Shown here: one piece after another, positions 2,632 through 22,551 of the stretch
How the letters are laid out: each line of letters begins with the position of its first letter
Position numbering within the stretch: the stretch's first letter is position 1
Origin: a virus
Virus record (IMG/VR): IMGVR_UViG_3300025655_000310
Span: 1-22,974 of that record
Reading direction: 5' to 3' (one strand)
Length of the DNA stretch: 22,974 nucleotides
Translations under genes and position numbers: made by a program
Notes under the pieces: generated by a model
Databases searched by the model: none
What the model was told of the DNA's origin: nothing
What the model saw: the letters and a program-made list of their open reading frames with translations, nothing else

Positions 2632-2662
2632 TATTAACGTGAAAACACATTTTTTTGTTTTT
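2632..2662 (-). promoter_or_regulatory. Candidate phage late (ECF-type) promoter 1, for the 754-aa tail protein
   Basis: On the minus strand AAAAAC (2662-2657) is followed by exactly 17 nt and then CGTTAATA (2639-2632). The ATG at 2625 begins 6 nt further on. The same layout occurs before four other late genes in the window. AAC near -35 and CGT near -10 with a 16-17 bp spacer is the general form of ECF sigma promoters. Confidence 0.7.
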
Positions 2663-3078: not shown

Positions 3079-4503
3079 TTAAACCACTTGCACCAAATCA
3101 CTACTATATTTAAAAGCAATTTCGTAGTTTATTAGCTTGTCAACTATGCGGGTCTTTTTATCCACGCTATTAGTATCGACTTCCATAGGCTCACCGTTTT
3201 CTAAATACACATAGTCGCTTAATAGTAAGTCATCAATAGCTGCGTTTTGCTGCTCGCTAATGTAGCCCGTTGTAAGTTGTAACGACCTACGCGCGTTCGT
3301 GTCCGTATTGCGATATAAATGGCGCGTAGTGTCATAAGTGCCACCGTTAACGTAGTTGTTCTTAAAATTCCCCTCACGAGTTACCTGCAAACTTTCTTTT
3401 TCGGCTTTAAAGAATGTAAGGTTTTCCCATACACCGTACCTATTTAAGAAACGGACTGGTTGTGTTTTATACAAGCACTCATCTATCAACTCAAAAATAT
3501 GTGTTCCGTTTACTTCTACAAAGTCATCGGTAAGCCCCGCAGTAGAAAAACAAACATATTGTATCTGCTTAGTTATATCACCGCTTGCTATTAATGTATA
3601 TAACCCTAAAAAATCGCCAGCTGGATTGGTAAATACTATTGAAGTTGTAACCGCGTTTGTATTTACTGGTACTATTATAAGTTCACCGCGCTTAACTTGG
3701 TGGCGTTGCGAACTCAAAAGAATAAGCTGGCTATATTTAGGCGTTGCACCTTGTTGGTAGGTTGCATAGCCTAGTGTGGTAACCGCTTGATTTAAAATAG
3801 GCTGGTCTATTGCTTCCAGATTGTTACGTACAGATATGCTGCTAGTAATTACAGACCCCGCTACGCTATCAACTATTCCAGCCGTGAACGTTGGAAGTTT
3901 AGGCGTTATAAAGTCGCGTGCGTATTGCGTTATCGCTAGGTCAAAATTCTCCCAGTTTGCACTTGGTCGTAGTTGAGTAGATTGATAATCTGGTGTGCGT
4001 TGCTGGTAGTCGGGGTCTATTAGGTCTGAATTGAACCACATCTTAACCGTTTGACTAACCACGTTGGGGTCTACAATAGGACGCGTTACGTAGTAGTTAG
4101 AACGCGCTGGAATGATACCTTCCGTTCGTGGTATATTTATCGCATCGTTATTTATAACAAAAGTAGCACGGCTTGTGTTCGGTTGCCCTATTACTAAATC
4201 GGTGAATGATATTTCCTGCCTTAGGCTACCTATTGTAACATTGTTGCCTATTATAGATACCTCATATTCCAAAGGGTCGAGGTCTAAATCAAGCGCGTCT
4301 TTATACAATCCAGCTTGCGTAACGTCATCCGTACCAGTTGAAAACTCGCCAAATTGCGTGCGGGTTGCTACTACCCTTTCGACTACAACCGAAAGACCAG
4401 CGTTTTGAATTGAATCAAAAGCATTAATAAAGATTAATGGCGTTGCTGTATTTGGCTCGAAAGCATCTGAGAATTTAATAGTAATTGTTGAGAATACTGG
4501 CAT
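3079..4503 (-). CDS. Virion structural protein, probable tail/baseplate component (474 aa)
   Basis: A 474-aa beta-rich protein with no enzyme motif, signal peptide or membrane segment. The segment around residues 350-385 (FLNRYGVWENLTFFKAEKES) is of a type I recognise from structural proteins of Bacteroidota tailed phages; no closer function can be named. The ATG at 4503 is 4 nt downstream of the CGTTAATA box of late promoter 2, which fixes the start. It is flanked by two plus-strand small genes, so it forms a one-gene late unit that then reads leftwards toward the 754-aa tail protein. Assignment to tail rather than head is from its place after the tail-completion genes. Confidence 0.6.
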   Translation of the reverse strand: MPVFSTITIKFSDAFEPNTATPLIFINAFDSIQNAGLSVVVERVVATRTQFGEFSTGTDDVTQAGLYKDALDLDLDPLEYEVSIIGNNVTIGSLRQEISFTDLVIGQPNTSRATFVINNDAINIPRTEGIIPARSNYYVTRPIVDPNVVSQTVKMWFNSDLIDPDYQQRTPDYQSTQLRPSANWENFDLAITQYARDFITPKLPTFTAGIVDSVAGSVITSSISVRNNLEAIDQPILNQAVTTLGYATYQQGATPKYSQLILLSSQRHQVKRGELIIVPVNTNAVTTSIVFTNPAGDFLGLYTLIASGDITKQIQYVCFSTAGLTDDFVEVNGTHIFELIDECLYKTQPVRFLNRYGVWENLTFFKAEKESLQVTREGNFKNNYVNGGTYDTTRHLYRNTDTNARRSLQLTTGYISEQQNAAIDDLLLSDYVYLENGEPMEVDTNSVDKKTRIVDKLINYEIAFKYSSDLVQVV

Positions 4504-4504
4504 A

Positions 4505-4533
4505 TTGTATTAACGAAAAATGTTGTATATTTG
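4505..4533 (+). promoter_or_regulatory. Host-type promoter for the small plus-strand gene at 4556
   Basis: TTG 4505-4507, 18 nt, TATATTTG 4526-4533. The final G (4533) of the -7 box is the complement of the invariant C of the late promoter 2 -35 box on the other strand, so the two promoters physically overlap. Confidence 0.75.
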
Positions 4534-4538
4534 TTTTT
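4508..4538 (-). promoter_or_regulatory. Candidate phage late (ECF-type) promoter 2, for the 474-aa structural protein
   Basis: Minus strand AAAAAC (4538-4533), exactly 17 nt, CGTTAATA (4515-4508), then 4 nt to the ATG at 4503. The core boxes and spacer match the other four copies. Confidence 0.75.
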
Positions 4539-4555: not shown

Positions 4556-4759
4556 ATGCAAATAATAGACACGCAACACAATATAGGTGAACTAGTTTTC
4601 CTTATAACCGACCCAGACCAGTACCCGCATTTAGTAACTGGCTACCTTGTTAGGAATGACGGCATAAGGTACGCGCTATCAATGAAAGGAAGCGAAACGT
4701 ATCACTATGACTTTGAAATTATAAGCGAAAAAGATATTATTAAGGCGTTATCTGAGTAA
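4556..4759 (+). CDS. Small antisense accessory (moron-like) protein, 67 aa, unknown function
   Basis: Not recognised. ATG at 4556 is preferred over an in-frame TTG at 4550. The 67-aa product starts MQIIDTQHNIGELVFLITDP and has an alternating beta-strand pattern with a central GYLVRNDGIRY segment. This resembles the size and strand pattern of small SH3-like beta-barrel domains, but I do not claim homology. It has its own Bacteroidota-type promoter 23 nt upstream. Its 3' end overlaps the convergent minus-strand tail-completion gene by 12 nt, so late transcription from 5695 would be antisense to it. Second of three genes of this layout. Confidence 0.7.
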   Translation: MQIIDTQHNIGELVFLITDPDQYPHLVTGYLVRNDGIRYALSMKGSETYHYDFEIISEKDIIKALSE

Positions 4760-5245: not shown

Positions 5246-5695
5246 CTAGCAGAAACGCATCACACTATCCGAAATTTCAACAGTCAAAGTCATAGACCAG
5301 CCGATAAGGTTATTTTCCACGCGTTCCGTTTTCTGTATGTTTGCATCGCCTAGAATAGAAATGCCATCGCTAACGCTTAGCTTGTTATAAACGCGCCTAA
5401 GTACGTAGAGCGTTGTGTTGTAAACGTCCTGCTCGTTATCGTTACCTATAAACTTCTGCCCGTTCTCAATCTCTTTGCTAAAATCTACCTGGTCAAGGCT
5501 AAACAACTCTAAATTAATCTGAATCACGTTATCTAAAAACGTTCCGTCGTTTGCTTCTATATGTGCAAGCGGGTAGATGTCTTTACGGTTTAGGTCGGTG
5601 CTACTCAAGTCCACGCCAGTAGTAACCGTATTGCAATCTACGTCGGCATCCAGCAAACTCTTAATGTAGTCTAGTAATAAATAGTATCCGTTCAT
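5246..5695 (-). CDS. Probable tail terminator/completion protein (149 aa)
   Basis: A 149-aa acidic protein beginning MNGYYLLLDYIKSLLDADVD. It carries a segment PLAHIEANDGTFLDNVIQIN (residues ~42-61), an N-D-N-E-Q-DVYNT element and a C-terminal NNLIGWSMTLTVEIS. Such short alpha/beta proteins with an N-terminal helix and a C-terminal W-x-x-x-x-x-V strand occur beside gp10-like proteins in Bacteroidota phages and are usually taken to be tail terminator or completion proteins (gpU-like). ATG at 5695 lies 4 nt after late promoter 3. The role is inferred from size, place and pattern. Confidence 0.55.
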   Translation of the reverse strand: MNGYYLLLDYIKSLLDADVDCNTVTTGVDLSSTDLNRKDIYPLAHIEANDGTFLDNVIQINLELFSLDQVDFSKEIENGQKFIGNDNEQDVYNTTLYVLRRVYNKLSVSDGISILGDANIQKTERVENNLIGWSMTLTVEISDSVMRFC

Positions 5696-5699
5696 AGTA

Positions 5700-5729
5700 T
5701 ATTAACGTGAAATAGCTTATATTTGTTTT
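5700..5729 (-). promoter_or_regulatory. Candidate phage late (ECF-type) promoter 3, for the tail completion genes
   Basis: Minus strand AAAAC (5729-5725), exactly 17 nt, CGTTAATA (5707-5700), 4 nt, ATG at 5695. G5725 is shared with the -7 box of the opposing plus-strand promoter. Confidence 0.75.
5718..5725 (+). promoter_or_regulatory. Host-type -7 box for the small plus-strand gene at 5742
   Basis: TATATTTG at 5718-5725, 16 nt before the ATG. No clean TTG is found at the expected -33 distance, so the promoter is weaker on paper than those of the other two small plus-strand genes. It overlaps the -35 box of late promoter 3. Confidence 0.6.
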
Positions 5730-5741
5730 AAATTCAATAGC

Positions 5742-5984
5742 ATGATAGTCAAAATTAAAAGCCGCGCGCATAACGATAAAGTTCAAGAGTACTTAATTAA
5801 TAAGGGCTATAACATTCACACCATACCATTTAGGAATGGTGAGTTATATTGCTACACTTATACAGGTAACTTTTACCACCCTTACGACCCGCCAAAAGAA
5901 AGCGAGTTGACCAACTTATTTAATGACGATTTTGAACTAGACTTACAACTTAAAGAACGATTGATTAAGCACTTTAACTCTTAG
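5742..5984 (+). CDS. Small antisense accessory (moron-like) protein, 80 aa, unknown function
   Basis: Not recognised. An 80-aa protein starting MIVKIKSRAHNDKVQEYLIN with a GYNIHTIPF segment and a Tyr-rich middle (LYCYTYTGNFYHPYDPP), ending in an acidic then basic helix. The -7 box TATATTTG lies directly upstream. Its last 11 nt overlap the end of the frameshifted tail chaperone extension on the opposite strand. It is the third copy of the same arrangement: a single plus-strand gene placed between late units, with its promoter overlapping the next late promoter. The three proteins share no visible sequence similarity, so the arrangement rather than the gene is what recurs. Confidence 0.7.
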   Translation: MIVKIKSRAHNDKVQEYLINKGYNIHTIPFRNGELYCYTYTGNFYHPYDPPKESELTNLFNDDFELDLQLKERLIKHFNS

Positions 5985-6668: not shown

Positions 6669-6823
6669 TCGTTAAAGTATTGTTGTGCAAATTTTAAAGC
6701 GTAATCTAGCTTTGCCAAATCCATGCCGTCGTTAAGTTTAATGTTACCGATATCCACGCCTTTAAACTCGTGAATGTATCTCCTAACTAGCATTACCTTT
6801 TGCTCGATGTCAGTCCTAAACAT
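6665..6823 (-). CDS. Small 52-aa protein between terminase and tail chaperone
   Basis: Not recognised. ATG at 6823-6821, TGA at 6667-6665. The product starts MFRTDIEQKVMLVRRYIHEF and ends LDYALKFAQQYFNE; it is charged and probably all-helical. The start overlaps the end of the large terminase gene by 8 nt and the stop overlaps the start of the tail chaperone gene as ATGA. This double coupling strongly supports a real gene despite its size. The location is where small head-tail joining or chaperone accessory proteins are often found, but no function can be named. Confidence 0.7.
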   Translation of the reverse strand: MFRTDIEQKVMLVRRYIHEFKGVDIGNIKLNDGMDLAKLDYALKFAQQYFNE

Positions 6824-8015
6824 AGTACTTTCCTTTATGAGGATTATCTAAATGGTAAGTCACGTTGTACCTAATTCCGTCCAGTAAGTGATTCCAGTCA
6901 TCTATGTACAATTTGCTTGCTCTATCTGAATAGGTGTAGTTATTTAATTCCTTTGCTAAATTACTACTTTCTGGTGAAACAACCAACTTATAGTCTAACA
7001 ACATTTGAACACCGCTCTCGATTGTGCCTTTTTTGACCGCTTGTATATTTGCACCTCTACTTTTTAGGTCGGCAATAAGTCGCGGCTCAGCACTATCTGC
7101 AATGATTAAGCGTTTGTCTGTGATTGCATTTAGTCGCTCACTAAGAACGTTGGTCTGTAAACCTTTCTCATAAATACACTCCCTTAAATATATCACCCTT
7201 TTAGTCTTATCTATTGCTACTTCGGTCAGTGCATCTGGGTCAATACTAAAACCAAAGTCAAGCCCGAAACTAGTCTGTAATCCGTCTGGGTTAAAGTCGC
7301 CAAATTCCCAATTCTGGAATACAACGCCCTCTGCCTTATCTAGCCAGCCCCCCATAATCTTATGTTCAAACTTGCTTAGATTGGTTCGCTTTAAACGCTC
7401 GATGTCCTTAATGTAGCTAGGGCTTAGATTGGTAGAGTTGTCTAGGTATGTCGTATGTATGTAATTCACGTCCTCCTTAGTTCCGTTCCAACCACCCGAA
7501 ACGCCACGCTCCTGGAAGAACCTGCGATATATCCAATGCTCTTTTGTAGTAGGGTTCATCATTAATATAACGCGGTTCTGTACGCCCTTTTGCCTTACCG
7601 ATAAATTGATAGTGTCGAACTTATCTTCGTCCATAAGTTCCTCCGCTTCGTCTAGTACCCACGTGCTTAATCCTGTAATGGATTTTAGGTTTGCCGTCTG
7701 GTCACCGCTAGAGGTTTTGATACCTCTAAATAGAATCCGCGTGCCAGACTTGCGGTTTATAATCTCATCCTTAGTAACGGCAAAATCACCATCACGCCCT
7801 AGTAGTTCTATTTTCTCCAGGAACTCGGGAATGATACTAATCGCGGCAGACCTTAAAGTGTAACGCGTGAAAAGTATAGTATGCCCACGTTCGTAGCTAA
7901 GCAAAAGCGTAAGCAAGGCAACCCCGAAAGATTTGCCCGACCCACGCCCACCTGTTACTATGCTAAATTTACTATCCGTCCCTAGTAGTTCATATTTCGG
8001 GCTAAGTGTTACCAA
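6816..8015 (-). CDS. terL: Terminase large subunit (packaging ATPase and nuclease)
   Basis: A 399-aa protein with the full terminase layout. Walker A GGRGSGKS is at residues 22-29, Walker B with catalytic carboxylate STWVLDEAEEL at 117-127, and the coupling motif MMNPT at 152-156. The RNase H-like nuclease domain shows acidic positions GLDFGFSID (D253), IIADSAEP (D307) and HLLDGIRY (D379). It cuts concatemeric DNA and pumps it into the prohead at the portal. Length is at the short end for TerL but complete. The start overlaps the small terminase gene by 14 nt and the end overlaps the 52-aa gene, so it belongs to the late unit that begins at 8672. Confidence 0.95.
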   Translation of the reverse strand: MVTLSPKYELLGTDSKFSIVTGGRGSGKSFGVALLTLLLSYERGHTILFTRYTLRSAAISIIPEFLEKIELLGRDGDFAVTKDEIINRKSGTRILFRGIKTSSGDQTANLKSITGLSTWVLDEAEELMDEDKFDTINLSVRQKGVQNRVILMMNPTTKEHWIYRRFFQERGVSGGWNGTKEDVNYIHTTYLDNSTNLSPSYIKDIERLKRTNLSKFEHKIMGGWLDKAEGVVFQNWEFGDFNPDGLQTSFGLDFGFSIDPDALTEVAIDKTKRVIYLRECIYEKGLQTNVLSERLNAITDKRLIIADSAEPRLIADLKSRGANIQAVKKGTIESGVQMLLDYKLVVSPESSNLAKELNNYTYSDRASKLYIDDWNHLLDGIRYNVTYHLDNPHKGKYYV

Positions 8016-8303: not shown

Positions 8304-8672
8304 TTACTTATACTTACTAGCTATACTATCAATTGCCATTATAAGCTGCGACCATGCACTAGCACCGCAAGTCCTGCAAGGTGATACGTTGGTCTGCCTT
8401 ATTGAATTATAGGTGTCCTCTATTAATGTCATATCGTCATCCTTGAGCGTGTTACCGTTCCACTCTTTGCCCCATTGTTCCCAGCTTTGGAATTGCTCTT
8501 GTGTCATTTCGTCTTTAACCGAGTTGTAAGGGATTAGCTTGTTAAGCTTGTTCTGTCGCTTCTTACATGATTCACATGGTTCAATGCCTGCCCATTTAGT
8601 AACCTTTGCGATTGTATCGCCTAGACCCTTAGAGGCTGGCTTGGTTGCTTTCTTTTTCTTAGGTGTTGCCAT
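8304..8672 (-). CDS. Conserved CxxC protein upstream of the terminase genes (122 aa)
   Basis: Function unknown. The N-terminus is Lys-rich (MATPKKKKATKPASKGLGDT). Residues 33-36 form CESC followed by KKRQNKLNKLIPY, and a second pair CRTC occurs at 99-102, so it probably binds a metal ion with four cysteines. The GLGDTIAKVTK...C..CKKRQ..LN pattern is familiar to me from small proteins next to terminase genes of Bacteroidota phages. It is the first gene of the packaging block and its ATG lies 4 nt behind late promoter 4. It might be DNA-binding or a head accessory protein; neither is shown. Confidence 0.65.
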   Translation of the reverse strand: MATPKKKKATKPASKGLGDTIAKVTKWAGIEPCESCKKRQNKLNKLIPYNSVKDEMTQEQFQSWEQWGKEWNGNTLKDDDMTLIEDTYNSIRQTNVSPCRTCGASAWSQLIMAIDSIASKYK

Positions 8673-8676
8673 ATTA

Positions 8677-8706
8677 TATTAACGTTAAAGTGTGGTTTTT
8701 TGTTTT
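8677..8706 (-). promoter_or_regulatory. Candidate phage late (ECF-type) promoter 4, for the packaging block
   Basis: Minus strand AAAAC (8706-8702), exactly 17 nt, CGTTAATA (8684-8677), 4 nt, ATG at 8672. It lies directly after the stop codon of the sigma-like gene and its -35 box touches it, so a promoter of the class the sigma may recognise follows the sigma gene itself. Confidence 0.75.
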
Positions 8707-9184
8707 ATATCTCCCCATTTTTTAATTGCTCATAAGCCTGTTTTAAATCCTTGCGCTCGCTTAATTCCTCCTTTGCAGCCTTTACCTTAGACCAAAGTTT
8801 ATACGCGCTGTAACCCATTTTCCGTGCCGAGCTGCGCACCGTGTAATCCATGTTAATCATTACCGCTTTACTCGTGCTAGGGTCACCTAAATCGCTTAGT
8901 GCCTTTTGCATCAAAACCTCTATGCAGTCGCTATCGGTTTCTTCGGTGCTTACATCAATGTAGTCTAGCGTGGTTTGCTTTTTAGTACGTCGTAGTTCGT
9001 CTATAAATAGATTGTGGATAGTTCTGTAAACGTAACGCTTATTCCAGCTAGGAGGGTTGCGCTCGTATATTTTTAAATACATATCCTGCACCAAATCATC
9101 TGCTAGTAAATGACAGCCGCAAATGGTAAAGGCTAGGTTTCGCCAGTAGGTATCTAGTTCGGCTAGTTTTAAAAGCTGCTGCAT
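8705..9184 (-). CDS. ECF-like RNA polymerase sigma factor, candidate late-gene activator
   Basis: A 159-aa protein. Residues ~12-66 resemble sigma region 2: LADDLVQDMYLKIYE (27-41) and then YVYRTIHNLFIDELRR (51-66), which matches the 'YRIARNLxxDxLRR' core that binds RNA polymerase and melts the -10 box. A C-terminal part at ~108-140 (MINMDYTVRSSARKMGYSAY...KAAKEEL) fits a degenerate region 4 helix-turn-helix for the -35 box. Length suits the two-domain ECF class. No anti-sigma factor is seen. It overlaps the VRR-NUC gene by 16 nt, at the end of the DNA metabolism block and immediately before the first late unit of the packaging/tail block. I infer that it directs the AAC-N17-CGTTAATA promoters. 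Confidence 0.8.
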   Translation of the reverse strand: MQQLLKLAELDTYWRNLAFTICGCHLLADDLVQDMYLKIYERNPPSWNKRYVYRTIHNLFIDELRRTKKQTTLDYIDVSTEETDSDCIEVLMQKALSDLGDPSTSKAVMINMDYTVRSSARKMGYSAYKLWSKVKAAKEELSERKDLKQAYEQLKNGEI

Positions 9185-9787: not shown

Positions 9788-11230
9788 TTATTTATTTCTT
9801 AACTGCATTTGATACTCCACCCACTTAGGTGAATATCCTTTGTATTTAGCGTAATCTTTTAGTTGCTCTTTGTTTTGCAAATTGTAAAATATCCAGTTTT
9901 TAGAGTAACCTTTTGCCGTTGCAAGCTGTTCTAGTTCCTCAAAACTTGCGCCCTGTGCTGCTTGCTTTACTTGGTCATATGAAAGTAGTCGCAATTCAGC
10001 TATTACCCTTTCCTGTATTTCTGCTTTGCTAGGCGGGAATACATGACCGCAATACTCGCACTCCTTTGCTTGTGTCGAAAGATACGCGTTGCAATTAGGA
10101 CATTCCTTTATAGGGCTAACTCCTAAACTTTTACGCGCTCGCTTTGGCGGCTGTAAAGACCATTCCCTATCCTGTTCCCAAAATCCATGCGTGGCTATGT
10201 TGTTTCCAAAATCTAGGATAGTGAAGGTGCTTTTAGTGGGTGTGGTTCTGCTTCCTCTACCTACCATTTGTAGGAATAAAGGCAGCGACTTGGTAGCGCG
10301 GTAAAGTATCACCACCTCGATAGTCGGCTCATCAAAACCAGCCGTTAGTATTCCCATGTTACTAAGTAGCGCGTTGGGTGTTTCCTTAAACCATTGCAGC
10401 GTTTCCCTACGTTCCTTTGTTGAGGTATTGCCGTCTAGGTGCTTAGCGGGAAGCCCCTTATCTTTAAGCGATTGCACTAGGGTCTTGCTACTTTCAATGC
10501 TACTTGCGAAAATGATAGCTTTCTGATTAGGCGTGTGCTTAATGTAGTTTTCATAAACCCCGTGATACAACTTAATCTCATCCATCCTTTTGCCGACTTG
10601 CTGGCTATCCCAGTCGCAGCCTTTGGTTTTCACCCCACTTAGGTCTATGCTTATGCCGTAAGACTTTGGGCGCGCTAGTTTGCCTAACTCGATTAGGCGC
10701 GAAACCTGTGCAACCTCCACCATTGACTGGTAAAATGCGTCCAGCGCGGGCTGGTTCTTTTCACGGTGTGGGGTTGCCGTTACACCTATCACTATAACAT
10801 GAGGTGGTAGTGCTGCAAGTAGCGTATTAAAATCGCATCGATGGCACTCATCAACTATTACCACATCCAGACCATTAGCGAGCCATTGCGCATATAAGGG
10901 CTTTTTAAAGCGTCTTACAAGCGTTTGTGTCATCGCCACGTATAAACTACCTGCTAGCGTTTTGGGTGCGTAAGAGGGCTTTATGTGAATCGGGCTGAGG
11001 TTAAAATGTTCTAGCGTTCCACCAGCTTGGGTGAGTAGTTCGCTGCGATGCGTTAATATTAGTACGCGCTTTTGGTTTGCTATTATGCGGCTGGTGAGGT
11101 AACTGAACATGACAGTTTTTCCTGCGCCAGATTATGTAGGGGCGCATAGTACCAATCTACTCGCGCCCCCTTTTATTTTATCTCTTAAATCTTGTACGGC
11201 TTGTTCTTGATACGGATATAACTTTATCAT
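9788..11230 (-). pseudogene. SF2 DEAD/DEAH-type helicase interrupted by a stop in Walker A
   Basis: From ATG at 11230 (MIKLYPYQEQAVQDLRDKIK, then GGASRLVLCAPT) the frame meets TAA at 11134-11132, then resumes SGAGKTVMFSYL and stays open for 440 more codons from Met at 11110 to 9788. Helicase motifs after the stop are intact: DECH, VTATPHR, QMVGRGSR, and a C-terminal CPNC...CEYC zinc ribbon. Removing the six bases TAATCT restores APTGAGKT, the canonical motif I. A protein started at 11110 would lack the ATP-binding loop. It would unwind DNA during phage replication or recombination. The frame is otherwise undamaged, so the lesion is recent, suppressed, or a sequence error. An HNH endonuclease gene ends 1 nt before the ATG. 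Confidence 0.8.
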
Positions 11231-11231
11231 T

Positions 11232-11639
11232 TTAAATGTTATCAGTTATATTTTTGATGCAGTATTTGTTCCTTTCATCAAAAGCGCCATTATCAAAAGC
11301 GTGTCTCATGTTTTCTTTGTTAGTCATCCACTCTAAATTAGAAACTTTATTATCTAACTTATCCATGTTTATATGATTTACTGTAGGTTTATTTTCTGGA
11401 TTAGGTATAAATGTTTCCGCTACCAATCTATGAACTGATTTAGTATATTTTTTAGATGCTAACGATAAATAAACACGCTTATAACCTTTTTTATTAAAAC
11501 CAGCTTTTAATATGGTTTGAGAAAAGTTAGCAACCCTACCATCTTTATAAATAGTTTGCGACTTCTTTCTTCTTATTCTTCCTAAATCGCTCGCCTCATA
11601 ATAGCCAGCAAAAGAGGGTATGTCTTTCCATTTTTCCAT
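11232..11639 (-). CDS. HNH homing endonuclease with NUMOD4 domain (free-standing)
   Basis: A 135-aa protein. Residues 1-30 (MEKWKDIPSFAGYYEASDLG, RIRRKKS) are a NUMOD4 DNA-binding motif. Residues 68-115 include SVHRLVAETFIPNPENKPTV then NHINMDKLDNKVSNLEWMT, an HNH_3 catalytic core with H70, N88-H89 and the NLEW signature. It would cut a related, endonuclease-free phage to copy itself. It is clearly richer in A+T than its neighbours and sits between a 23-codon remnant of the helicase start (11748-11677) and the second helicase start (11230). A TATATTTA box lies just upstream of its ATG. Confidence 0.9.
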   Translation of the reverse strand: MEKWKDIPSFAGYYEASDLGRIRRKKSQTIYKDGRVANFSQTILKAGFNKKGYKRVYLSLASKKYTKSVHRLVAETFIPNPENKPTVNHINMDKLDNKVSNLEWMTNKENMRHAFDNGAFDERNKYCIKNITDNI

Positions 11640-11676
11640 AGTATAAATATACGATTTTTTATTTAATTAATAACGA

Positions 11677-11748
11677 TTATTTCCCTTGCGCTATTTCCTG
11701 CCTTAGTTCTTTTACTGCTTGTTCTTGGTATGGGTAGAGATTAATCAT
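11677..11748 (-). pseudogene. Remnant 5' end of the helicase gene (23 codons)
   Basis: ATG at 11748 opens MINLYPYQEQAVKELRQEIA then QGK and a TAA at 11679-11677. It aligns residue for residue with the start of the downstream helicase (MIKLYPYQEQAVQDLRDKIK) but with many synonymous and some amino acid changes. It is cut off just where the helicase continues toward its ATP-binding loop. Its ATG overlaps the stop of the upstream 43-aa gene, as a real operon start would. I read it as the original 5' end, displaced when the homing endonuclease arrived. Confidence 0.75.
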
Positions 11749-11872
11749 TCTCTAAATCTGATACAACTTCAACTCTTTCAAAGCATCCGCAATTATGACC
11801 GCAACTATCCATGAAACATCCATTTCCATCGTTTCCTGTGCACTCTCCTATGTATTTGTATTTCTTTACCAT
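11741..11872 (-). CDS. Small Cys-rich protein, 43 aa, unknown function
   Basis: Not recognised. ATG at 11872-11870, TAA at 11743-11741. The product starts MVKKYKYIGECTGNDGNGCF and continues MDSCGHNCGCFERVEVV; five cysteines (11, 19, 24, 28, 30) and H26 could hold one zinc ion. The stop overlaps the start of the helicase remnant by 8 nt, which supports translation of both in the ancestral operon. The upstream 20-45 nt carry a 27-bp dyad. A zinc-binding accessory to replication is conceivable, but only the position suggests it. Confidence 0.6.
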   Translation of the reverse strand: MVKKYKYIGECTGNDGNGCFMDSCGHNCGCFERVEVVSDLEND

Positions 11873-11890
11873 TTGTTAAGTTTTTAATCG

Positions 11891-11917
11891 GTTGTTAATA
11901 GTATTACTATTGACAAC
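11891..11917. promoter_or_regulatory. 27-bp near-perfect dyad, possible operator
   Basis: GTTGTTAATAGT (11891-11902), ATT, ACTATTGACAAC (11906-11917) pair at 11 of 12 positions. It lies 19 nt upstream of the 43-aa gene. No T-run follows on the minus strand, so it is not an intrinsic terminator; a protein-binding site is more likely. Confidence 0.4.
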
Positions 11918-11939
11918 CTCGCAGCCCTTTGATAGTGCG

Positions 11940-12055
11940 GGTTACAAGGTTACAATAGAAACTCTAAAAGTTTTATATATTTTATATATAGTTGGTGCAA
12001 AAAAATGTTTTCCCATATAGAAGTTTTCGCCTTTTTTAGGTGTAACATTGTAACC
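11940..12055. other. Candidate replication origin: GGTTACAA iterons flanking an A+T-rich core
   Basis: The 198 nt between the primase gene (12071) and the 43-aa gene (11872) hold no convincing gene. GGTTACAA occurs twice in tandem (11940-11947, 11948-11955) and again inverted at 12048-12055, with a related TGTAAC at 12041-12046. Between them is an A+T-rich core (about 11970-11990, TTTTATATATTTTATATATA). Repeats in both orientations around an easily melted core next to the primase-helicase gene is a common origin layout. Function is inferred only. Confidence 0.4.
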
Positions 12056-12070
12056 GTTGCTACCATTGGG

Positions 12071-16004: not shown

Positions 16005-16441
16005 TGTTCTTGTCTTTGTTTTTTGTTAATGTTTGATTTGTGGTATAATTCTATTCGTGGTAAAAATTCTATTACTTCTAGTTCTGTCATTTCGCTTAAA
16101 ATCTTAACAGCTTTCTCGATTGGTTTAGATAGCTTAAAATCTTCTAAGTCTTGAGTTTTTACGCCCGTGTTAATTTTAAAATGTATTAAAGCATCTTCAT
16201 AGCATTCTCTGACACTTGCGCTATCCTTATGGTACATATCAAACTTTTTTAAGCTATTTATAACAGTAGCATGATTAACGCCAACTGAACGCCCTATTTC
16301 GTTTAATGCTAAATTTGTGTTTTCGCGTATTAATTTAAAATAGGTTGCTCTTGCATTTATGTTATTAGTTTCCCTGTGTCGGCTTCTTAAATTTGCTCTA
16401 AAGTAATCTTCTACAAATGACTTAACCTCTGATAACCTCAT
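15974..16441 (-). CDS. Stand-alone DnaA domain IV-like DNA-binding protein
   Basis: A 155-aa protein. Residues ~18-68 (NINARATYFKLIRENTNLAL, NEIGRSVGVNHATVINSLKK) match the DnaA domain IV helix-turn-helix, in which the 'DHTTV' signature binds the DnaA box; here it reads NHATV (56-60). There is no AAA+ ATPase domain, so it is not a full initiator. The remainder is a charged helix ending in a Gln-rich tail (QEQWQQQKQQQA). It may bind a phage origin, hijack host initiation sites, or repress. It lies second in the operon driven from 16745-16774. Confidence 0.75.
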   Translation of the reverse strand: MRLSEVKSFVEDYFRANLRSRHRETNNINARATYFKLIRENTNLALNEIGRSVGVNHATVINSLKKFDMYHKDSASVRECYEDALIHFKINTGVKTQDLEDFKLSKPIEKAVKILSEMTELEVIEFLPRIELYHKSNINKKQRQEQWQQQKQQQA

Positions 16442-16721
16442 GCGCTATAACTTTAATCTGGTTTAACCTTTCTTGTGAATCCTGTACGTGTTTAGCTTGA
16501 GCGGTTTCAATTGCCTTAACGCGCTCCTTTAATTTTTCGGGTTTATCGCTGTGTAAGTAGTTAGGCAATTTAACACCCGTAGCTATTGCAGCCGATTGTT
16601 TAACGCCAGCACTTGCAAGGTCGTAAACTTCTTTTAGTTTGTCCTTAACGGTGATTGTGGTAACGCCGTTTTTATTTTCGTGTATAGTAGTAACACGTGG
16701 GAAATGTTTAATTTGTTTCAT
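16422..16721 (-). CDS. Small basic protein at the head of the replication operon, unknown
   Basis: Not recognised. A 99-aa Lys/Glu-rich protein beginning MKQIKHFPRVTTIHENKNGV with a probable helical C-terminal half (KLKERVKAIETAQAKHVQDS). It has no cysteines and no membrane segment. It is the first gene behind the best host-type promoter in the block, 23 nt from the -7 box, and it overlaps the DnaA-like gene by 20 nt. Being first suggests an early regulatory or host take-over role, but nothing in the sequence proves this. Confidence 0.7.
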   Translation of the reverse strand: MKQIKHFPRVTTIHENKNGVTTITVKDKLKEVYDLASAGVKQSAAIATGVKLPNYLHSDKPEKLKERVKAIETAQAKHVQDSQERLNQIKVIAHEVIRG

Positions 16722-16744: not shown

Positions 16745-16774
16745 CAAATATAAACCTATTTATAACTTATGCAA
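16745..16774 (-). promoter_or_regulatory. Host-type promoter of the replication/recombination operon
   Basis: Minus strand TTG (16774-16772), 19 nt, TATATTTG (16752-16745), a full match to the Bacteroidota housekeeping consensus. It stands 23 nt before the ATG at 16721. It is expected to be read by the host polymerase early in infection. Confidence 0.8.
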
Positions 16775-17524: not shown

Positions 17525-17554
17525 TTGTTTGTTTTTTTAGGTAGTTCTTTGTTT

Positions 17555-17584
17555 AAAAAAAGCCTACTCGGTCAAAAGTAGGCT
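17555..17584 (-). terminator. Intrinsic terminator after the lysis genes
   Basis: On the minus strand AGCCTACT (17584-17577), 8-nt loop, AGTAGGCT (17568-17561) and then a run of seven T (17561-17555). It is 38 nt after the end of the spanin gene, so it closes the structural and lysis transcript before the replication block. Confidence 0.9.
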
Positions 17585-17622
17585 CAAAAAACAAAAAACA
17601 AATGAAAGATTAAAGTGCAATA

Positions 17623-21408: not shown

Positions 21409-21974
21409 TATGCGTATGTTAATCTGTTTCCAGTCCCGTCTGTTAGTATTTCTAGTAGTTCGCTTAGTAAATAGTTGTTTTCGGTTGCTATGCTAAAACC
21501 AGCTGCCACTAAATCTGTGAAAAGTAACGACTTGTAGCGCTCATTTGCTTCTATGCTAATGGTATACCCGTTTAGGTCATTTTTTGCGCCACCCGTTGCT
21601 GCCGTTGCACTTTCAATTCTACATCCATTTTCAGCACCTACGAGCCTAAATAAGCCATCCCACCCCTCAATAATAAGCCCTAGTTCAATACCTATAAGCG
21701 TTTCTATTTCTATGGTGTCCGATAGCGTTTGCTTTGTCAAAGTCGCGCTAAATGACTGCGACCAATCGCCTAAATCCTGCGCGCGGTTCTCGCTAAAACT
21801 AGACGCTTGCACATTGTAAGCATAAACCAAAGTAGGTGGATAGCTTGTAAGGGAAACGCCCCTTTGCCCTCGTGCCTGCCTTGCTACTTCCTGTGAGTAC
21901 TTGAAAATATACACCCTTTTAACGCCACCTAAACCATCTTTACATGGCTCAGTCCTACCTCGAAATATCCTCAT
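21408..21974 (-). CDS. Conserved virion protein, possible tail component (188 aa)
   Basis: A 188-aa protein beginning MRIFRGRTEPCKDGLGGVKR. A middle region with GLFRLVGAENGCRIESATAA (~110-130) and NDLNGYTISIEANERYKSLL is beta-rich. The pattern 'PC-x-x-GLGGVK-x-VY-x-F' at the start and 'NG-Y-x-I-x-x-E' near the end is one I associate with small virion proteins of Bacteroidota phages. It overlaps the upstream connector gene by 20 nt and meets the fibre gene at TAATG. Head-tail joining or tail tube are both possible; I cannot separate them. Confidence 0.55.
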   Translation of the reverse strand: MRIFRGRTEPCKDGLGGVKRVYIFKYSQEVARQARGQRGVSLTSYPPTLVYAYNVQASSFSENRAQDLGDWSQSFSATLTKQTLSDTIEIETLIGIELGLIIEGWDGLFRLVGAENGCRIESATAATGGAKNDLNGYTISIEANERYKSLLFTDLVAAGFSIATENNYLLSELLEILTDGTGNRLTYA

Positions 21975-22515
21975 GATACCACTTTTTTACCATGCGACCA
22001 GGCAAGTAAAAACCGCCTACTATATTAACATCCCTATTCGGGTGCTGGTCAAAGTCATTCGGCTGGTCGTCTTGATATTCTGGAATTTGCACCCCTACAT
22101 CACATAGCCACTTTTGCAACCTACCTACCCAAACATCTGCCTTAGCTTTGTAGTTATTTGCAAAAAATCTCACTTCGTCAATAGGCGCGCTTTCGCTATT
22201 TGTTGGTAACGCTTTATAAATGCCACTATCCTGTACGTTATACTGACCCGTAAGCACGTACTCGCTAAATACGGCATTGTATAAAATAGGCTTTAAATAA
22301 TTTTCGTGTACTGTTTCATATAAGCCAGTAAGCGGGGTTTGGCTTAGGATGTCCGCTGCAATTTTCTCATATAGTGCCGTGCCTATTATATCCTCAATTA
22401 GATACCTTTGCTGCTCATATATAATGTATATGTAGCGGTCGGTATCTACATTGCCACCAATAGGCGTAAATTTTACGATTTCGGCTGGAGTTATGAAAAG
22501 TGCTTGTTGATTCAT
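21955..22515 (-). CDS. Probable head-tail connector / neck protein (DUF6712-like)
   Basis: A 186-aa protein that opens MNQQALFITPAEIVKFTPIG, GNVDTDRYIYIIYEQQRYLI and DIIGTALYEKI. The 'I-x-x-x-E-I-x-x-x-T-x-I-G-G-N-V-D...I-x-x-x-LG-x-x-LY' pattern is that of small helical connector proteins found next to capsid genes in Bacteroidota phages, analogous to gp6-type head completion proteins. The ATG at 22515 is 7 nt behind the CGTTAATA box of late promoter 5. It overlaps the next gene by 20 nt. The DUF name is from memory and not checked. Confidence 0.65.
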   Translation of the reverse strand: MNQQALFITPAEIVKFTPIGGNVDTDRYIYIIYEQQRYLIEDIIGTALYEKIAADILSQTPLTGLYETVHENYLKPILYNAVFSEYVLTGQYNVQDSGIYKALPTNSESAPIDEVRFFANNYKAKADVWVGRLQKWLCDVGVQIPEYQDDQPNDFDQHPNRDVNIVGGFYLPGRMVKKWYHEDISR

Positions 22516-22522
22516 GTTATAT

Positions 22523-22551
22523 TATTAACGCATTTTGCGTTGTTTTTGTTA
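22523..22551 (-). promoter_or_regulatory. Candidate phage late (ECF-type) promoter 5, for the virion/lysis block
   Basis: Minus strand TAAC (22551-22548), exactly 17 nt, CGTTAATA (22530-22523), 7 nt, ATG at 22515. The -35 box is slightly weaker (ATAAC not AAAAC) and a second AAAAAC lies 6 nt closer. The -10 box is embedded in a hairpin, AACGCA-TTT-TGCGTT (22527-22541). Confidence 0.65.

Follow-up and report, generated by a model that had tools for sequence, protein, structure and literature searches.

A phage-encoded ECF-type sigma factor, the last product of the early genes, very probably acts with the host core RNA polymerase to switch on the late gene blocks of this virus through a repeated two-box element. 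The sequence analysed (the window) is a 22,974-base virus record fragment related to the Nonlabens (Persicivirga) phages P12024S and P12024L (genus Inhavirus), and the phage infects marine flavobacteria. All main genes of the window are carried on the minus strand, and the blocks and features discussed below are collected in Table 1. Products of the early block follow in the order phosphoesterase, DnaA-C-like, Erf-like, YqaJ-like, SSB, primase, helicase, VRR-NUC, and sigma factor, as assigned from domain or family matches and from synteny with annotated P12024S. The virion genes belong mostly to PHROGs of unknown function, the named functions being portal, terminase, and tail, with a head maturation protease in P12024S.

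Two further observations were made on the gene order. A terminator-like hairpin (GCCTACTTTTGACCGAGTAGGC followed by a T run) is located at 17525-17622, between the lysis block and the early block. The first codons of the helicase gene (9788-11110) are found at 11111-11231, interrupted by an in-frame stop within Walker A (CAPT*SGAGKT), and similar first codons (MINLYPYQEQAVKEL...) recur, as a second copy, ahead of an HNH-like gene at 11232-11639; the region as a whole (11111-12070) has the appearance of an insertion that split or duplicated the gene start.

Table 1. Gene blocks, genes, and predicted promoter elements of the window.
Feature	Position	Strand	Remarks
Portal end and tail/lysis block	22867 to 17623	-	read along the minus strand
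Early DNA-metabolism block	17524/16721 to 8705	-	
ECF-like sigma factor gene, 159 aa	8705..9184	-	sigma2 ~10-69, linker ~70-83, sigma4 ~84-155
Packaging and further virion genes	8672 to 2	-	
Terminase large subunit (TerL)	6816..8015	-	Pfam Terminase_3 E=1e-34; downstream of predicted late promoter 8677-8706
Predicted late promoter, packaging block (TerS-like, TerL)	8677..8706	-	AAAACAAA...CGTTAATA; 4 nt before ATG 8672
Predicted late promoter before gene 5246-5695	5700..5729	-	exact match; 4 nt before ATG; orthologous sites in relatives
Predicted late promoter before gene 3079-4503	4508..4537	-	exact match; 4 nt before ATG; orthologous sites in relatives
Predicted late promoter before gene 361-2625	2632..2661	-	exact match; 6 nt before ATG; orthologous sites in relatives
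Predicted late promoter before gene 21955-22515	22523..22550	-	exact match; 7 nt before ATG; orthologous site L001 5380-5407
Host-type -7 element TATATTTG (TAHHTTTG)	16745..16752	-	pattern match; ~24 nt before ATG of gene 16422-16721
Host-type -7 element TATATTTG	5718..5725	+	shares bases with -35 box of 5700-5729; faces divergent ORF 5742-5984
Host-type -7 element TATATTTG	4526..4533	+	shares bases with -35 box of 4508-4537; faces divergent ORF 4556-4759

The sigma factor protein

The preliminary description had proposed a two-domain sigma factor with a degenerate region 4, encoded by the last gene of the DNA-metabolism block. The position of the gene was borne out in the window, and the exact 159-aa ORF encodes a two-domain (sigma2-linker-sigma4) ECF-like sigma factor, with a Pfam domain match, a family profile match, and helices of both domains in a structural model. 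Residues 15-69 were matched by Pfam Sigma70_r2 (E=1.4e-8; score 34.8 bits, cut-off 24), a match that includes YVYRTIHNLFIDELRR at residues 51-66. Residues 15-143 were aligned with positions 15-163 of the 165 positions of TIGR02937 (sigma70-ECF) at E=6.9e-8, which is under the curated cut-off. Region 4 gave no separate Pfam match and in this respect is degenerate as described; among close relatives, however, the region 4 stretch is one of the best conserved parts of the protein, and TVRxTAxKMGYSAYKLWSKxKA within sigma4 is strongly conserved in the alignment of Inhavirus relatives. The protein is 66-67% identical to P12024S_33 and P12024L_35; the P12024S and P12024L records carry only the label 'Sigma-70 region 2' on a hypothetical protein, and the promoters are unannotated.

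An AlphaFold2 model built from 13 sequences (mean pLDDT 79, pTM 0.43) contained three confident helices in sigma2, a loose, low-confidence linker at residues 71-79, and five helices in sigma4 (84-98, 102-113, 116-123, 127-142, and 145-155). The best Foldseek matches in the PDB were Mycobacterium tuberculosis SigE, SigH, and SigL in initiation complexes (E 3e-4 to 1e-3, probability 1.00, whole-chain TM 0.36-0.39), and SigW, AlgU, RpoE, and BldN came next. The low whole-chain TM is most likely due to the poorly predicted relative placement of the two domains.

The presence of sigma2 and sigma4 only, a linker of under 50 residues (from Sigma70_r2, the model, and TIGR02937), and a structure related to known ECF sigmas (from Foldseek) are traits shared with bacterial ECF sigmas such as RpoE, SigW, and EcfG, which have the same two domains, a short linker, and AAC/CGT boxes (PMC8103513). 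No match to known anti-sigma families was obtained for the neighbouring VRR-NUC-like nuclease and 122-aa Cys-rich protein, and no box was found before the sigma gene of the window by exact-pattern search, that is, no sign of autoregulation. Positive autoregulation is frequent among ECFs and not strict, exceptions being given in the review (PMC8103513). Whereas the bacterial proteins serve envelope or stress responses, this one is a virus gene that would serve virion genes. As a separate observation, the sigma gene is itself immediately preceded by a box in the related loci L200 (~6238), L222 (~1100), and L224 (~6432), which suggests positive autoregulation there, unlike in the window phage.

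Predicted late promoter boxes and their conservation

The pattern AACAAA-N14-CGTTAATA, seen as one repeated element in intergenic regions, was matched exactly five times in the window, always on the minus strand (2632, 4508, 5700, 8677, and 22523), and not once in any of 100 dinucleotide shuffles of the window. Every match precedes the first gene of a late block and none falls in the early block; the gap between box and ATG is 4, 4, 4, 6, and 7 nt for the genes starting at 8672, 5695, 4503, 2625, and 22515, respectively. The promoter predicted at 22523..22550 heads gene 21955-22515 and, with it, the tail/lysis block as far as 17623. A search allowing three mismatches was uninformative (10 matches, 7.9 expected), so only the exact pattern, its position, and its conservation were counted.

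In the preliminary description the first box was placed directly behind the sigma stop codon, and the boxes were likened to ECF promoters. The box at 8677-8706 is indeed present there and overlaps the stop codon, its first two A being part of TAA; in P12024S and P12024L, unlike the window, another small gene lies between sigma gene and promoter. Orthologous sites with fixed boxes were found in nine relatives (L001, L002, L003, L005, L041, L068, L072, L094, and L113). The arrangement at the late blocks, AAAACAAA-N13/14-CGTTAnTA, has AAC at -35 and CGT at -10, and agrees with the ECF promoter hallmark of AAC at -35 and CGT at -10, CGTT being found for EcfG and TGAAAC within the -35 box of SigW (PMC8103513).

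P12024S and P12024L carry the orthologous sigma and seven sites each of the same promoter at late-block starts, one of which precedes an operon opening with the head maturation protease homologue. No box was found in the early block of P12024S or in its leftward block at 32.4-35.6 kb, and the repeated motif thus stands before late genes only, in five of five cases in the window and seven of seven in P12024S. When IMG/VR was scanned for the exact two-box pattern followed by ATG, 91 stretches were recovered, and those with at least two sites were all Inhavirus-like; a scrambled control pattern in the same scan brought in 67 stretches, none with two sites. A chance origin of the boxes was ruled out by the shuffles and the control pattern.

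Among 35 distinct Inhavirus-like sites, the AAC-to-CGT spacing was 17 in 34 and the C of CGT was located 12 nt before ATG in 30. TT at -4/-3 of CGTTA and T, A at +6/+7, which the search did not require, were nearly invariant. The boxes are fixed and the spacers vary freely across these sites, indicating purifying selection on the boxes with the spacers left free. In all Inhavirus-like contigs that reach the sigma gene (sigma 53-98% identical), the boxes persist with it.

Primary promoters of Bacteroidota contain TTTG/TAHHTTTG, a consensus derived from Flavobacterium johnsoniae (PMC6847099). The minus-strand element of this type at 16745-16752 is a candidate early promoter that may also feed the sigma gene, and its position before the early block is consistent with host-made early mRNA. 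The divergent small ORFs start ~24 nt beyond the opposite-strand TATATTTG elements, and the same overlap with a late -35 box, AAACAAATATA, was found in P12024S (L001) at 5382-5389 and 23932-23939, minus strand. Overlapping back-to-back early and late promoters would be formed in this way, the TATATTTG elements mostly facing small divergent ORFs, and the host and phage holoenzymes could exclude each other at them.

Sigma lineages and box variants in the wider family

At least 232 relatives of the sigma were recovered from IMG/VR by profile scan, nearly all without named relatives, and in INPHARED only P12024S and P12024L were matched, also with distant sigma queries. A common prophage gene was ruled out by a single weak match in 84,980 genomes. 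Gene order (sigma, small genes, TerL, next gene) is widely conserved among the relatives.

The comparison took in about 50 sigma lineages, the most distant at about 26% identity. Upstream regions were taken as one set per lineage, before the gene after TerL and the S01 homologue, with no motif selection; [ACT]GTT[AT] starts exactly at -12 in 31 of these 44 orthologue-anchored regions and at each other position in 0-3. The most enriched fixed-position 5-mer before ATG was GTTAT ending 6 nt upstream (29 against 2.2 expected), a figure obtained from the sigma-selected loci, the TerL-selected set having been left out for its redundant sequences. Most of the regions with the -12 box also have an ACA box upstream of it, at a distance of 15, 16, or 17 nt depending on the lineage, and in distant lineages the AC-to-box spacing is 15-16 nt, not 17.

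Box variants placed on the sigma tree group by clade, namely AGTT(A/T) including AGTTAT, CGTTATTA/TGTTATTA, and CGTTTATA, and a distant sigma lineage carries AAACTAAA...TATTATATA in place of the usual boxes. In L006, whose sigma is 34% identical, the box is found at a different gene boundary than in Inhavirus and at an equal distance to ATG; in L271, L226, and other deep lineages it differs or sits elsewhere. The variable -10 base (position -12) agreed within genomes in 10 pairs against 6.1 expected (p=0.06, chance sites included), which is no more than suggestive. A different two-box element, AAACTAAA then CTATTATATA, was observed upstream of the gene after TerL in L201, L203, L232, L234, L253, and L274, and this element of a deep lineage may be a second promoter type pairing with its own sigma clade.

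The link between protein and boxes, proposed in the preliminary description together with a check for co-variation among relatives, is supported by this comparative evidence: box and sigma persist together in Inhavirus, the -12 box recurs in the unselected regions, and its variants follow the sigma clades, so that recognition of the boxes by the protein is predicted. The opposite case named there, boxes kept with the sigma gene absent, was not found among the contigs examined. Inhavirus-like contigs with boxes and no sigma match were fragments not reaching the sigma gene. When 80 loci were chosen only by TerL, the sigma was present in 43, 0.6-4.8 kb upstream of TerL, and 34 of the 37 loci without it lie on contigs that start less than 3.7 kb before TerL. 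In L206, L220, and L227, 3.8-5.5 kb upstream of TerL was covered with no sigma match; L227 could be the sole real absence, a phage of this family lacking the sigma near TerL. Four Bacteroidota phages without the sigma (Polaribacter P12002L, Flavobacterium 11b, Bacteroides B40-8, and Cellulophaga phi10:1) had no two-box sites in 274 gene starts, compared with seven in each of P12024S and P12024L. The joint inheritance of sigma and boxes within a genome would also result if another conserved factor read the boxes.

The proposed late switch and its alternatives

According to the proposal, the early (DNA metabolism) transcript would be made by the host holoenzyme, with the sigma as its last product. 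The sigma would then bind host core RNA polymerase and direct it to the bipartite promoters, with the -35 AAC box recognised by sigma4 and the -10 CGTTA box by sigma2. Promoters of this kind precede the packaging, head, tail, and lysis blocks, and the late genes would be turned on once sigma accumulates. We infer core binding, box recognition, timing, and transcription start sites from the sequences compared.

With the -10 box 12 nt upstream of the A of ATG, transcription would have to start at the start codon or within one or two bases of it, and the late mRNAs probably have their 5' end at the start codon itself. Leaderless mRNA would be the best explanation of the fixed distance between box and ATG, as transcription begun any further downstream would leave out the start codon. 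The phage sigmas of 7-11 and phiEco32 begin transcription at a distance of 6-9 bp from the promoter element (PMC8948821); 4 nt separate the end of CGTTAATA from ATG, and the same distance would therefore also place the start at ATG or just beside it. Of the transcripts predicted for F. johnsoniae, 87% have leaders of more than 10 nt (PMC6847099).

Phage-encoded late sigmas with bipartite promoters are already known. In the available text of PMC8948821, SaPh711_gp47 of Salmonella phage 7-11 works with host core at late promoters of the form GTAAtg-(16)-aCTA and early genes are left to the host holoenzyme, as proposed here; that text reports no fixed box-to-ATG distance or leaderless late mRNA. 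Phage 7-11 differs in the phylum of its host and in its unrelated boxes, and the likeness lies in the promoters and their use. The phiEco32 protein phi32_gp36 is likewise described in that text as a phage-encoded sigma for middle and late genes acting with host core, but at a single-element promoter (tAATGTAtA) and with no region 4 homology, in contrast to the two boxes and sigma4-like domain of the window phage; phiEco32 also uses gp79, an inhibitor of sigma70.

The boxes might instead be promoters for a host alternative (ECF) sigma, the phage protein doing another job such as binding core for host shut-off. ECF sigmas are numerous in Bacteroidota, and AAC/CGT boxes are typical of ECF promoters in general (PMC8103513), but the co-occurrence of boxes and phage sigma over about 50 lineages, with variants that track sigma clades, renders this reading improbable; phages of related hosts that have no sigma also have no boxes, and a host sigma would not change in step with the phage clade. 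The protein is also unlikely to be a sigma-like activator working in the ArpU/RinA/Ltr-type way, or to depend on a second phage protein, and so to be no complete sigma alone. Genes of the ArpU/RinA/Ltr-type late regulators of Gram-positive phages sit just before the terminase genes, a place that the sigma gene resembles, and region 4 is too divergent for Pfam. Against this, the best-matching part is sigma2, with its core-binding and -10 face, the fold match to ECF sigmas in initiation complexes is full-length, and the sites combine a -35 box with a -10 box, spaced as for ECF sigmas, instead of an operator beside a host -7 element.

A translation-initiation signal in place of a promoter would account for the constant spacing from ATG, and in Bacteroidota an A-rich start context takes the place of Shine-Dalgarno (PMC6847099). 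Translation in F. johnsoniae favours A at -3, -6, -12, and -13 (PMC6847099), whereas the element at standard spacing has C at -12 and T at -6; a second box lies 17 nt further upstream, and the element occurs at block starts only, being absent from internal late genes. A translation signal was rejected as very improbable, the A-6/A-12 rule not being followed. Recognition of the boxes by the phage sigma with host core is retained as the preferred reading.

The fixed ATG distance with its predicted leaderless mRNA, the breadth of the family, and the precedent of phage 7-11 (PMC8948821) had been overlooked in the preliminary description. No description of the family, of its ECF-like boxes, or of ATG-anchored late promoters was found in open-licence PMC papers. 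What is new is that the fixed -12 position predicts leaderless late mRNAs and that the pairing of sigma and boxes would mark a large, nearly uncultured phage family. It is rather more probable than otherwise that this almost wholly uncultivated family of Bacteroidota phages has its own ECF-type sigma and ATG-fused promoters, that all its late mRNAs are leaderless, and that sigma and promoter have co-diversified into distinct pairs. A complete late-gene switch is thereby proposed for a phage group that has hardly been studied by experiment, and leaderless mRNA is predicted virus-wide in Bacteroidota hosts whose own mRNAs are mostly leadered. The dozens of sigma lineages and matching box variants form a natural set for the study of base choice by sigma2 and sigma4, and the start-anchored box would make late operons readable from sequence alone in many environmental virus contigs.
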